Assembly: GCF_000179775.1 (NCBI RefSeq)
Contig: NZ_AEEB01000017.1
Location: forward strand, 62,001-126,000
Length of the DNA stretch: 64,000 bases
Direction of reading: 5' to 3'
DNA from: Ahrensia sp. R2A130
GTDB taxonomy: Bacteria > Pseudomonadota > Alphaproteobacteria > Rhizobiales > Rhizobiaceae
The translations under genes were made by a program, and so were the position numbers. Under the pieces are notes generated by a model, which ran no database searches, was not told the origin of the DNA, and saw nothing but the letters and a program-made list of their open reading frames with translations. This document shows positions 30,739 to 44,921 of the stretch, one piece after another. Each line of letters begins with the position of its first letter. Positions within the stretch are counted from its first letter, which is position 1.

Positions 30739-30879
30739 CTGTCATCCCCGCGCAGGCGGGGACCCACTTCTCAACAAACTCCACTCTTTGTAGCTCATTT
30801 CGATGCTACAATGTCGCCCTATTATGCCCACTTCATCATTCGACTGATAAGTGGGTCCTCGCCTGCGCGGGGATGACAG
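30739..30879. repeat. Palindromic repeat, copy 1 (convergent gap)
   Basis: Conserved inverted arms of about 30 nt begin CTGTCATCCCCGCGCAGG and end CCTGCGCGGGGATGACAG, enclosing a variable centre. Length is 141 bases. It fills the gap between convergent rskA and msrB. In the phase used by the intragenic copy the frame closes at TAG inside the centre. It would form a long hairpin in either RNA strand. Confidence 0.9.
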
Positions 30880-35374: not shown

Positions 35375-37582
35375 GTGCCTGATCCGTCACGCCTGCTGCG
35401 TCTTATTCGTCCGCGTACCATCACCGTGATAGGCGGCAAGGAATGTGAGCGCGTGGTGGAGCAATGCGATCGCTTGGGCTTCGACGGCACGATCTGGCCC
35501 GTCCACCCGACGCGCGAAACGCTGGGCGGGCGCAAGTGCTTCCGCTCCATCGCAGACCTGCCCGAAGCACCGGATGCAGCCTATGTCGCGGTGAACCGCG
35601 AACGCACGATCTCCGTTGTCGCCGACTTGGCAATGCGCGGTGCGGGTGGCGCAATCTGCTACGCGGCAGGGTTTGCCGAAGCCAGTGCGGAAGACGCGGC
35701 TAGCGCCAATCTGCAAACGCGTCTCGTCGAAGCCGCAGGCGACATGCCCATCGTCGGCCCCAACTGCTACGGCCTAATCAACGCACTGGATGGGGCCGCG
35801 CTCTGGCCGGACCAGCATGGCGCAGCCCGAGTGGAAAACGGCGTGGCGATCATCACGCAATCGTCGAACATCGCCATCAATATGACGATGCAAAAGCGCG
35901 GCTTGCCGATTGCGATGGTCCTGACCGCAGGCAATCAGGCGCAGCTCGGCCTGTCCGATCTCGGTGCGGCGATCATCGAAGACGAACGCATCACCGCGCT
36001 TGGCCTGCATATCGAAGGGCTGGACGACGTCCATGCTTTCGAGCGCCTCGCGCTACGTGCCCGTGAATTGGGAAAGCCCATTGTGGCCATCAAGGTCGGG
36101 CGGTCGGAACAGGCGCAGGCGGCAACGATCACCCACACGGCATCTCTCGCCGGAAGTGATGCCGCCCACGATGCATTGTTCACCCGCCTCGGCATCGCCC
36201 GCGTGGATGATATCGCGACCTTTCTGGAAACGCTAAAACTGCTGCACGTCCACGGCGCGTTGCCCGGCGGTGATGTGTTGTCACTATCCTGCTCCGGCGG
36301 CGAGGCGTCGTTGATGGCTGACACTGCTCTGCCCACAGGTCTGGACTGGCGGAGGTTCACGGAAGCAGAAACGGGCGCGCTCCGCACTGAACTTGGCCCG
36401 ATGATCGGCATCGCTAATCCGCTCGACTACAACACCTTCATCTGGGGCGATTGGCCCGCGATGATCCGCATGTACGAGGCGGCGCTCGCACCCGATTTCG
36501 ACCTCGCCATGCTGGTAATTGACATTCCCCCCGCCGACCGTTGCGACCCGGCAGACTGGTTGGGGGCAACGAACGCGTTCATCGCCGCGATGAAGCAAAC
36601 CGGCGCTCGTGCCGCAGTGGTGTCCAGCCTGTCTGAGACGATGCCGGAGGAATTGGCGCAAGATTTGATGGCGAAGGGAATAGCGCCGTTGTGCGGGTTG
36701 GATGCTGCGGTGAGGGCGGCAGACGCAGCGAGATTTATCGGGGAAGTGTGGTCGCGGCCTTTGCCACTTCCCTTACTCCAAACTTCCCCCACACCCAGCT
36801 GTCATCCCCGCGCAGGCGAGGACCCACTCATCAACGAAACGGATGATGCTTTTATTTCTGCGTCTGACAATATGAGTGGCACCACCTCGCAGCCAACACC
36901 TAGTGGAGCGCCCTCAGAAGTGGGTCCCCGCCTGCGCGGGGATGACAACTGTGATGATGAGATGCTGGACGAATATAGGTCGAAGTACGAACTCGCGGCC
37001 TATGGTTTGATCGTTCCGAAGGGCATCAATTTATCTGCTGATGAGGCGGTGAACTTCGGCGACCTCACCCAGCCCTTCGCGCTCAAAGCCCTCGGTATCG
37101 CTCATAAATCCGAAGCCGGTGCCGTGCGTCTGAATCTGACTACAAACGCCGAAGTCGAAGCCGCCCGCAATGACATGGCTGACCTCTCCAGCCGTTTCCT
37201 ACTCGAAGAAATGGCCCCCAAGCCACTCGCCGAGCTCCTCGTGGGCATCACCCGCGACCCCACGGTTGGCCTCATGCTAACCATCGGTGCAGGCGGGGTA
37301 CTGACGGAACTGCTGGACGATGTGGCGAACCTTCTTCTACCCGTCACCGAGGCGGATATTCGCCGCGCCTTGGGTGGCCTAAAAATCGGTCGCCTGCTCG
37401 ACGGCTACCGCGATAGCGATGCGACTGATATCGACGCACTCATCGCCAACATCATCTGCATCGCCCGCTACGCCGAAGCCCACGCAGATACGCTGGAAGA
37501 GCTGGACGTGAACCCGCTTTTCGCCACGCAATACGGGTCGGTGGCGGTGGATGCACTCATTATCAAACGGAGACCGCAATGA
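35375..37582 (+). CDS. NDP-forming acyl-CoA synthetase with in-frame palindromic-repeat insertion
   Basis: 735 residues from a GTG start. Domains in order: CoA-binding Rossmann fold (PRTITVIGG, then YVAVNRERTISVV); succinyl-CoA-ligase flavodoxin-like region (VGPNCYGLINA, ITQSSNIAINM) with a candidate phospho-His in ITHTASLAGSDAAHD; a second ligase domain (PLDYNTFIWGD); and a C-terminal ATP-grasp domain (KALGIAHKSEAGAVRLNL, IGAGGVLTELLDD). It activates a carboxylic acid to its CoA ester. About 50 residues at 475-525 (SCHPRAGEDP to EVGPRLRGDDN) come from an inserted palindromic repeat that sits exactly in the linker before ATP-grasp, without a stop or frameshift. The stop overlaps the next ATG (ATGA). 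Confidence 0.9.
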   Translation: MPDPSRLLRLIRPRTITVIGGKECERVVEQCDRLGFDGTIWPVHPTRETLGGRKCFRSIADLPEAPDAAYVAVNRERTISVVADLAMRGAGGAICYAAGFAEASAEDAASANLQTRLVEAAGDMPIVGPNCYGLINALDGAALWPDQHGAARVENGVAIITQSSNIAINMTMQKRGLPIAMVLTAGNQAQLGLSDLGAAIIEDERITALGLHIEGLDDVHAFERLALRARELGKPIVAIKVGRSEQAQAATITHTASLAGSDAAHDALFTRLGIARVDDIATFLETLKLLHVHGALPGGDVLSLSCSGGEASLMADTALPTGLDWRRFTEAETGALRTELGPMIGIANPLDYNTFIWGDWPAMIRMYEAALAPDFDLAMLVIDIPPADRCDPADWLGATNAFIAAMKQTGARAAVVSSLSETMPEELAQDLMAKGIAPLCGLDAAVRAADAARFIGEVWSRPLPLPLLQTSPTPSCHPRAGEDPLINETDDAFISASDNMSGTTSQPTPSGAPSEVGPRLRGDDNCDDEMLDEYRSKYELAAYGLIVPKGINLSADEAVNFGDLTQPFALKALGIAHKSEAGAVRLNLTTNAEVEAARNDMADLSSRFLLEEMAPKPLAELLVGITRDPTVGLMLTIGAGGVLTELLDDVANLLLPVTEADIRRALGGLKIGRLLDGYRDSDATDIDALIANIICIARYAEAHADTLEELDVNPLFATQYGSVAVDALIIKRRPQ
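36799..36948. repeat. Palindromic repeat, copy 2, inside acyl-CoA synthetase gene
   Basis: 150 bases (50 codons) with the same inverted arms as copies in gaps at 30739, 38410 and 44793 (arms begin CTGTCATCCCCGCGCAGG, with minor changes). In the host frame it encodes CHPRAGEDP at the left arm and VGPRLRGDD at the right arm. The centre contains no stop in this frame, unlike the other copies. It lies between the ligase and ATP-grasp domains. Confidence 0.92.
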
Positions 37583-38409: not shown

Positions 38410-38559
38410 CTGTCATCCCCGCGCAGGCGGGGACCCACTTATGAATGTGACGGATGCTTGTTTTTGAGATGAGCTGGCAGCCAAGGGCGGCTTCGCATTA
38501 CACACTGTAAATGTTGGAATGCTTTGCGAAGTGGGTCCCCGCCTGCGCGGGGATGACAG
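38410..38559. repeat. Palindromic repeat, copy 3 (convergent gap)
   Basis: 150 bases with the conserved arms (CTGTCATCCCCGCGCAGG, ending GGGGATGACAG). It fills the gap between convergent caiD-like and TVP38 genes. Part of the centre resembles that of the intragenic copy (an ACGGATG...CTT stretch next to the left arm). The phase used inside the synthetase hits TGA in the centre here. Confidence 0.9.
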
Positions 38560-42497: not shown

Positions 42498-42530
42498 GTC
42501 ATCCCCACGAAAGCGGGGACCCATTTCGCA
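42498..42530. repeat. Half copy / variant of the palindromic repeat
   Basis: GTCATCCCCACGAAAGCGGGGACCCA-type arm: it resembles the left arm of the other repeats but with ACGAAAG in place of GCGCAGG, and no right arm is found before the mrp start. It is probably a decayed or related repeat. Confidence 0.6.
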
Positions 42531-44792: not shown

Positions 44793-44921
44793 TTGTCATC
44801 CCCGCGCAGGCGGGGAACCACTTATCCGCGTATGATGAAATTGCGGTAGGGTGAAGCTGACAACAAAAGCAGTTAAAAGCGTCTGTTGAAAAGTGGGTCC
44901 CCGCCTGCGCGGGGATGACAA
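44793..44921. repeat. Palindromic repeat, copy 4 (convergent gap)
   Basis: 129 bases with the conserved arms (TTGTCATCCCCGCGCAGG, ending GGGGATGACAA) and a shorter centre than the other copies. It fills the gap between the convergent cyclodeaminase and HisD-family genes. In the intragenic phase it is closed by TGA shortly after the left arm. Confidence 0.9.

Follow-up and report, generated by a model that had tools for sequence, protein, structure and literature searches.

REP sequences of the CGTC and GTAG types are known to occur inside coding genes, and flexible linkers or loops have been suggested as the sites that tolerate them (Di Nocera et al. 2013, PMC3733652). As described in the sections of that report drawn upon here, a CGTC-type REP carries its tag (of which TGTC is a variant) on the outside, forms a stem of 8–9 basepairs in which the first and second pairs are almost always A/T, has a loop of 4–5 bases and an unpaired CCA tail, and is found predominantly in head-to-head dimers, without an associated transposase gene. 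The same sections place uvr genes among the REP carriers, equate the CGTC repeats found within genes of Rickettsia conorii with RPE-4 and RPE-6, and contain one same-site case, in which different REPs occupy recB in two Xanthomonas (PMC3733652). Rickettsia palindromic elements, as presented in the portions of two reports used here, lie in frame within conserved genes and add tens of residues to them (PMC3733652, PMC2759123). Enterobacterial RU elements are small mobile repeats proposed as protein segments (Delihas 2007, PMC2759123), and the QMITE elements of Coxiella are short repeats that sometimes lie in frame within ORFs (PMC5896051). The locus analyzed below is similar to each of these in kind. 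It differs from the Rickettsia, RU and QMITE elements in its hosts, which belong to the Rhizobiaceae group; the RU and QMITE elements are likened to it by description only, and the RU report, in its sections considered here, describes no recurrence at one linker.

The locus lies in a 64,000-nucleotide stretch of the genome of Ahrensia sp. R2A130 (hereafter ‘the window’), within a 3.73 Mb assembly of 59 contigs. An ADP-forming acyl-CoA synthetase gene in the window, identified as such by the presence of CoA-binding, ligase and ATP-grasp domains, contains a palindromic repeat element directly upstream of the segment encoding its last domain:

35375..37582, + strand, ADP-forming acyl-CoA synthetase gene (735 codons, GTG start)
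35414..35782, + strand, CoA_binding_2 domain (residues 14–136)
35840..36244, + strand, Succ_CoA_lig domain (residues 156–290)
36799..36948, + strand, 150 bp palindromic repeat element, in frame (encodes about residues 475–525)
36800..36829, + strand, left REP arm, begins TGTCATCCCCGCGCAGG
36918..36947, − strand, right REP arm, inverted
36956..37561, + strand, ATP-grasp_5 domain (residues 528–729)

The original prediction, that a complete copy of a dispersed repeat family sits in this gene, in frame and without a stop, at a permissive site between domains, is borne out on each of these points: the element is an intact 150 bp member with two inverted arms, the 735-residue reading frame stays open across it, and it lies just before ATP-grasp_5. 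The left arm translates as Cys476-His-Pro-Arg-Ala-Gly. The gene has no frame break, and a 24-sequence alignment displays invariant columns along both of its halves, which argues against a pseudogene. The closest matches to the synthetase in the genome contigs searched (from which its own record was possibly excluded) come from uncultured Rhizobiaceae-group MAGs. Searches of the window for Rfam families and for tRNAs gave no match.

The arm pattern occurs nine times in the window, compared with 0.04 occurrences expected from shuffling. Apart from the element in the synthetase gene, the family is represented in the window by the following features:

30739..30879, no strand assigned, further full copy of the family (arm matches 30742–30876)
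38410..38559, no strand assigned, further full copy of the family (arm matches 38413–38556)
44793..44921, no strand assigned, further full copy of the family (arm matches 44796–44918)
42499..42519, + strand, single arm of the family with 2 mismatches

A genome-wide search with the insert region returned 96 matches, and 34 sites were extracted from 32 fetched stretches of the genome (one of them, C56:121083, resembles a chance match of the loose pattern used). Full two-arm elements make up 26 of the 34 sites; they extend over 127–150 bases from TGTC to GACA, and consist of arms of the form TGTCATCCCCGCGnAGGCGGGGACCCACTT inverted about a variable spacer. In the synthetase gene, both arms of the copy agree with the consensus at 30 of 32 positions; the copy aligns end to end with other members and covers the same unit as the intergenic ones. 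It measures 148 bases from TGTC to GACA and, with one further base on each side, 150, a length divisible by three. A TGTC-to-GACA length divisible by three together with an open frame, a measure that excludes the in-gene copy itself (148 bases), is found in six of the 26 full copies. Of the 25 other full copies, 19 have at least one of their six reading frames open. The further claim, that stops close the intergenic copies in this phase (TGT CAT), is only partly true. It holds for the window's three remaining full copies, but across the genome four of the 25 other full copies are open in that phase as written, or eight of 25 if either orientation is counted.

We also scanned ORFs that span or overlap repeat sites elsewhere in this genome for protein domains. 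Among ten such ORFs, eight were domainless and two had a single arm before their first domain; among nine more, one contained domains (of SerA type), with the element again located before them. Within the ORFs scanned, which are a part of those over the 26 full copies, just one copy was observed between domains of a gene.

The family follows most of the published description of CGTC-type REPs (PMC3733652, in the sections cited above). Its arm consensus starts with TGTC; the two-arm elements, which account for most of the sites, have their tags on the outside, as in head-to-head dimers; and by eye the arms show a GnAG loop and the unpaired CCA tail. A search for the Y1_Tnp (RAYT) domain gave no match in the window genome, which is 94.9% complete, and matches in three of 38 genomes, in agreement with the lack of an associated transposase gene as far as Y1_Tnp is concerned. 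RAYT was dropped as a candidate mobilizer on the same counts. The stem departs from the rule: ATCCCCGC and GCGGGGAC pair at seven of eight positions, and by eye the first pair is A/C rather than A/T. We therefore term the family CGTC-like rather than a member of the CGTC type. Given this layout, and the published link between CGTC repeats and RPE-4 and RPE-6, the earlier description of the element as ‘unrelated’ to the Rickettsia palindromes is unsupported as it was put. Going by the grouping in that report, a sequence relation to those elements may exist. A further difference from them is that, within the ORFs scanned, inter-domain insertion was observed for one of 26 full copies.

Comparison within the genus indicates an insertion. 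Eleven orthologous linkers, including that of the window, were available: nine are 24–32 residues long, that of the window is 75, and that of a second genome (L003) is 43. The window insert is absent from all ten of the other orthologues, none of which has the same residues in this linker, and the peptides CHPRAG or GPRLRG were found in the window linker only, among 180 linkers. The arm family itself has matches in four of 14 other genomes of the genus and none in two genomes from outside it. The L003 linker contains a different insert, whose arms, by eye, fit the CGTC REP layout fully; elsewhere in the L003 genome it has five matches, most of them partial.

An AlphaFold model of the synthetase built from 24 sequences (pTM 0.84, mean pLDDT 83) contains a single stretch of three or more residues with pLDDT below 50, at residues 474–526, and this stretch coincides with the insert. 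The ∼50 residues encoded by the element are thus predicted to be disordered, and probably form a floppy stretch between the two halves of the enzyme. Fold matching identified DddX, 4-hydroxybutyryl-CoA synthetase and archaeal ACD1 as solved relatives. In ACD1 of Ca. Korarchaeum the two halves are separate chains, and in structure 9y43 they are in swapped order; both arrangements offer an explanation for the tolerance of insertions at this junction.

What the original prediction had missed, while correctly reading the element as an in-frame dispersed palindrome at a permissive linker, is the many invasions of this linker in relatives by repeats of other families. A short-linker orthologue (L004) was used to search 297 genomes of the family, 220 of which matched. 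The matches listed cover at least 150 places; by eye, 121 of these align end to end and 29 break at the linker, and 27 of the 29 carry an in-frame linker of at least 42 residues (the usual length is 24–26). Four of the 29 were already in our locus set and the other 25 were added. The resulting set of 180 loci is not random, as it comprises loci L001–L030 and L031–L110, the 30 top matches of the L004 search, those 25 broken places, and 15 full-length loci chosen mainly by length; one locus is a duplicate (L198 of L146) and some genomes appear twice. Across this set linkers of 24–26 residues are common, and 36 loci (33 of them distinct) have linkers of 42–85 residues.

The inserts differ in family from one relative to another. 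Multi-copy status was assessed by DNA comparison for four of them, and weakly for L003. The L002 insert has 68 matches in its own genome (G047) and the L059 insert 35; among the matches of the L059 family is also the linker of G049. The L184 insert has 49 matches in G158 and 6–54 in each of eight other genomes, and the L180 insert has 69 in G185 and 9–57 in each of four others. Because the matches are BLAST pieces in which both arms and both strands are counted, the numbers of elements are lower than these figures. Inserts of the same family occur in opposite orientation in different relatives (for example L189 and L191, or L176 and L188), and the L005 insert looks degenerate. Outside the linker, insertions of at least ten residues were seen in two of 112 aligned rows (L014 and the frame-broken L197). 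Since different repeats occupy the same linker in many relatives, selfish DNA seems to have been turned repeatedly into protein linker at this site.

The other two of the 29 broken places have their domains in different frames. L182 (G159:C1:4641424-4643865) has a strongly folding palindrome in its linker, out of frame, that resembles the L175–L188 inserts; this may be a broken gene, or one whose two halves are produced as separate proteins. L197 (G264:C48:4030-6447) has a frame break in a short linker with no palindrome. Both were counted as empty in the tree and folding counts, since their open part reads short. By eye, the linkers of L199, L200 and L207 read like halves or deleted forms of longer inserts, as does a hydantoinase linker (L276) from the survey described below; these short forms suggest decay after insertion.

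We placed the inserts on a gene tree of the two synthetase domains (quick LG+G4, with weak support at 32 of its 105 inner branches; FastTree gave identical counts). It contains 112 of the 180 rows, 54 of the 68 loci L043–L110 and 14 presumed duplicates having been dropped. Presence of an insert requires at least 11 changes among 102 rows when ten rows with linkers of 30–41 residues are left out, and 15 among all 112 if those ten are counted as empty. Broad repeat family requires at least 19 changes, and family together with orientation at least 26; such changes may be gains or losses, and the family labels were assigned by hand. The clade of the window, with its two unlike inserts (L001 and L003), is separate from the insert-rich clade, and a third clade of 37 rows has no inserts.

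Six pairs of relatives share an insert, and the linker is open in both members of every pair. Their dN/dS ranges from 0.03 to 0.24 in the domains versus 0.24 to 1.07 in the linker, so that the genes look functional and the inserts relaxed. Synonymous divergence was unexpectedly low in the linkers of two pairs (L193/L195 and L181/L191), at 0.096 versus 0.40–0.65 in the domains, a four- to seven-fold difference; in the other four pairs it is 0.27–0.55 in the linker versus 0.36–1.13. Gene conversion, re-insertion or a constraint on the nucleic acid could account for the two low values. At the RNA level, linkers of at least 42 residues have a median folding z of −3.6 relative to same-gene windows (n = 33, range −14.1 to 0.6), with 25 of the 33 at or below −2.0, compared with a median of −0.1 for short linkers (n = 69, range −5.2 to 3.1). 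Five of the long linkers have a z of −1.3 or weaker, L005 and L185 show no excess folding, and the linker in the window itself has a modest excess (z of −1.5).

A similar pattern was found in a second enzyme. One of 20 other repeat copies in G158 lies between the two domains of a hydantoinase (L236); the scan covered ten ORFs from seven of the 13 loci with spanning ORFs. We surveyed the corresponding linker at 30 loci in 27 genomes (L253–L282), here with no same-gene windows as reference. Nine of the 30 fold strongly (−0.57 kcal/mol per base or stronger) and have linkers of 49–70 residues with several kinds of repeat-like peptide, distributed across genera; in three of the nine (G158, G229 and G274) the insert coincides with a DNA match of the L184 family. 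Short linkers of 13–25 residues account for 13 loci (two of them from one gene), and the remainder are seven longer linkers (36–53 residues) with weaker folding and one fragment. For 20 other repeat copies in G047, no domain was detected in ten ORFs scanned (from six of 11 loci with spanning ORFs). In a broader scan of L001–L110 ORFs for strong inverted repeats, 28 of 85 merged stretches lie inside long ORFs, some of which are the synthetase itself; seven other such ORFs gave nothing above the Pfam cut-off. The hydantoinase pattern weakens the idea that recurrence is peculiar to the synthetase, and makes it look like the outcome of a general filter for permissive linkers. Such recurrence would be expected if palindromes were supplied steadily and those that proteins tolerate were retained; conceivably, the elements themselves also prefer such linker sites.

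We consider it likely that a REP dimer (two inverted CGTC-like arms and a spacer) was copied into the synthetase linker, presumably by an enzyme acting in trans, and was tolerated there as a disordered linker, and that the same has recurred in relatives, with erosion and replacement. The insert would be tolerated because it keeps the frame, has no stop in phase, and landed between halves that fold on their own, and the peptide, if translated as expected, would act as a disordered linker. In the relatives, dispersed palindromes would land in the linker, the in-frame ones would survive, and the inserts, presumably close to neutral, would evolve under relaxed protein constraint, erode, and give way to others. 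Counting against this account are the search for Y1_Tnp, which yielded no candidate mobilizer in this genome, the modest folding of the window linker relative to its gene, and the lowered linker dS in two of the six pairs, which plain neutral decay does not predict. The low dS also speaks for a reading with fewer insertions, in which an old element in an ancestor of the insert-rich clade served as a landing pad, and later either travelled with the gene or was changed as dispersed copies recombined with it or converted it. The in-gene copies of the L180 kind in five genomes also point this way: their likeness to one another extends further along the sequence than their likeness to dispersed copies, with matches over the full query (76–79%) where other matches in those genomes cover mainly one arm, so that part of the pattern may reflect old shared inserts or gene transfer. 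As a general explanation we regard this as unlikely, given that sister rows contain unlike inserts (L189/L196 and L190/L191), that same-family inserts occur in opposite orientation, that the genus of the window, in its separate clade, has two different inserts, and that 19 changes remain after families are merged.

The two low dS values, and the strong folding of long linkers by comparison with short ones, would equally suit a useful hairpin, in which a strong mRNA structure between the two domain-coding halves delays translation long enough for the first domain to fold ahead of the second, with repeats being recruited time after time for that purpose. We think this very unlikely: linkers of fewer than 30 residues occur in 69 of 112 rows (two of them frame-broken), folding is weaker than z −2 in eight of the 33 long linkers and shows no excess at all in L005 and L185, a hydantoinase has a similar pattern, and the dispersed copies possess such hairpins anyway. 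That the insert is an artefact of assembly or annotation, or belongs to a pseudogene, is exceedingly improbable; the 59-contig assembly and the linker frame breaks in two relatives would allow for it, and are outweighed by a frame that stays open between homologous domains before and after the insert, by long in-frame linkers in many other assemblies (including that of the named isolate Pseudaminobacter soli, L039), and by strong purifying selection on the domains in the six insert-sharing pairs. The repeated, largely neutral insertion that we favor may also be one part of something broader in this part of the Rhizobiaceae group, in which dispersed palindromes are a standing supply of inter-domain linkers, unrelated families across genera enter the same linkers of several enzymes, decay there and are succeeded by others, and hairpins are partly kept for a role of the nucleic acid such as translation pausing between domains; we offer this extension speculatively, and think it quite unlikely to hold in full.

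Intragenic REPs are already known in print. Reports of a single linker being invaded again and again, each time by other families, did not appear in our search of the open-licence literature by title and start of abstract. In the sections of the CGTC REP report cited here (PMC3733652) the synthetase is not named, and the single recB site stands apart from recurrence over many genera and families. With many different repeat insertions at one linker, and short linkers in relatives, the locus amounts to a natural replicate experiment that would allow measurement of which insertions are tolerated, of the rate at which coding sequence derived from selfish DNA is lost or retained, and of whether folding is influenced by hairpins between domains. 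It is also a warning against taking the linkers of such proteins for conserved protein sequence, as they can consist of repeat DNA acquired recently. As a minor observation from the G158 scan, a repeat copy precedes the first domain of a uvrB-type ORF (L233; G158:C1:1753754-1755851), where it could either form an N-terminal extension or lie upstream of the true start.
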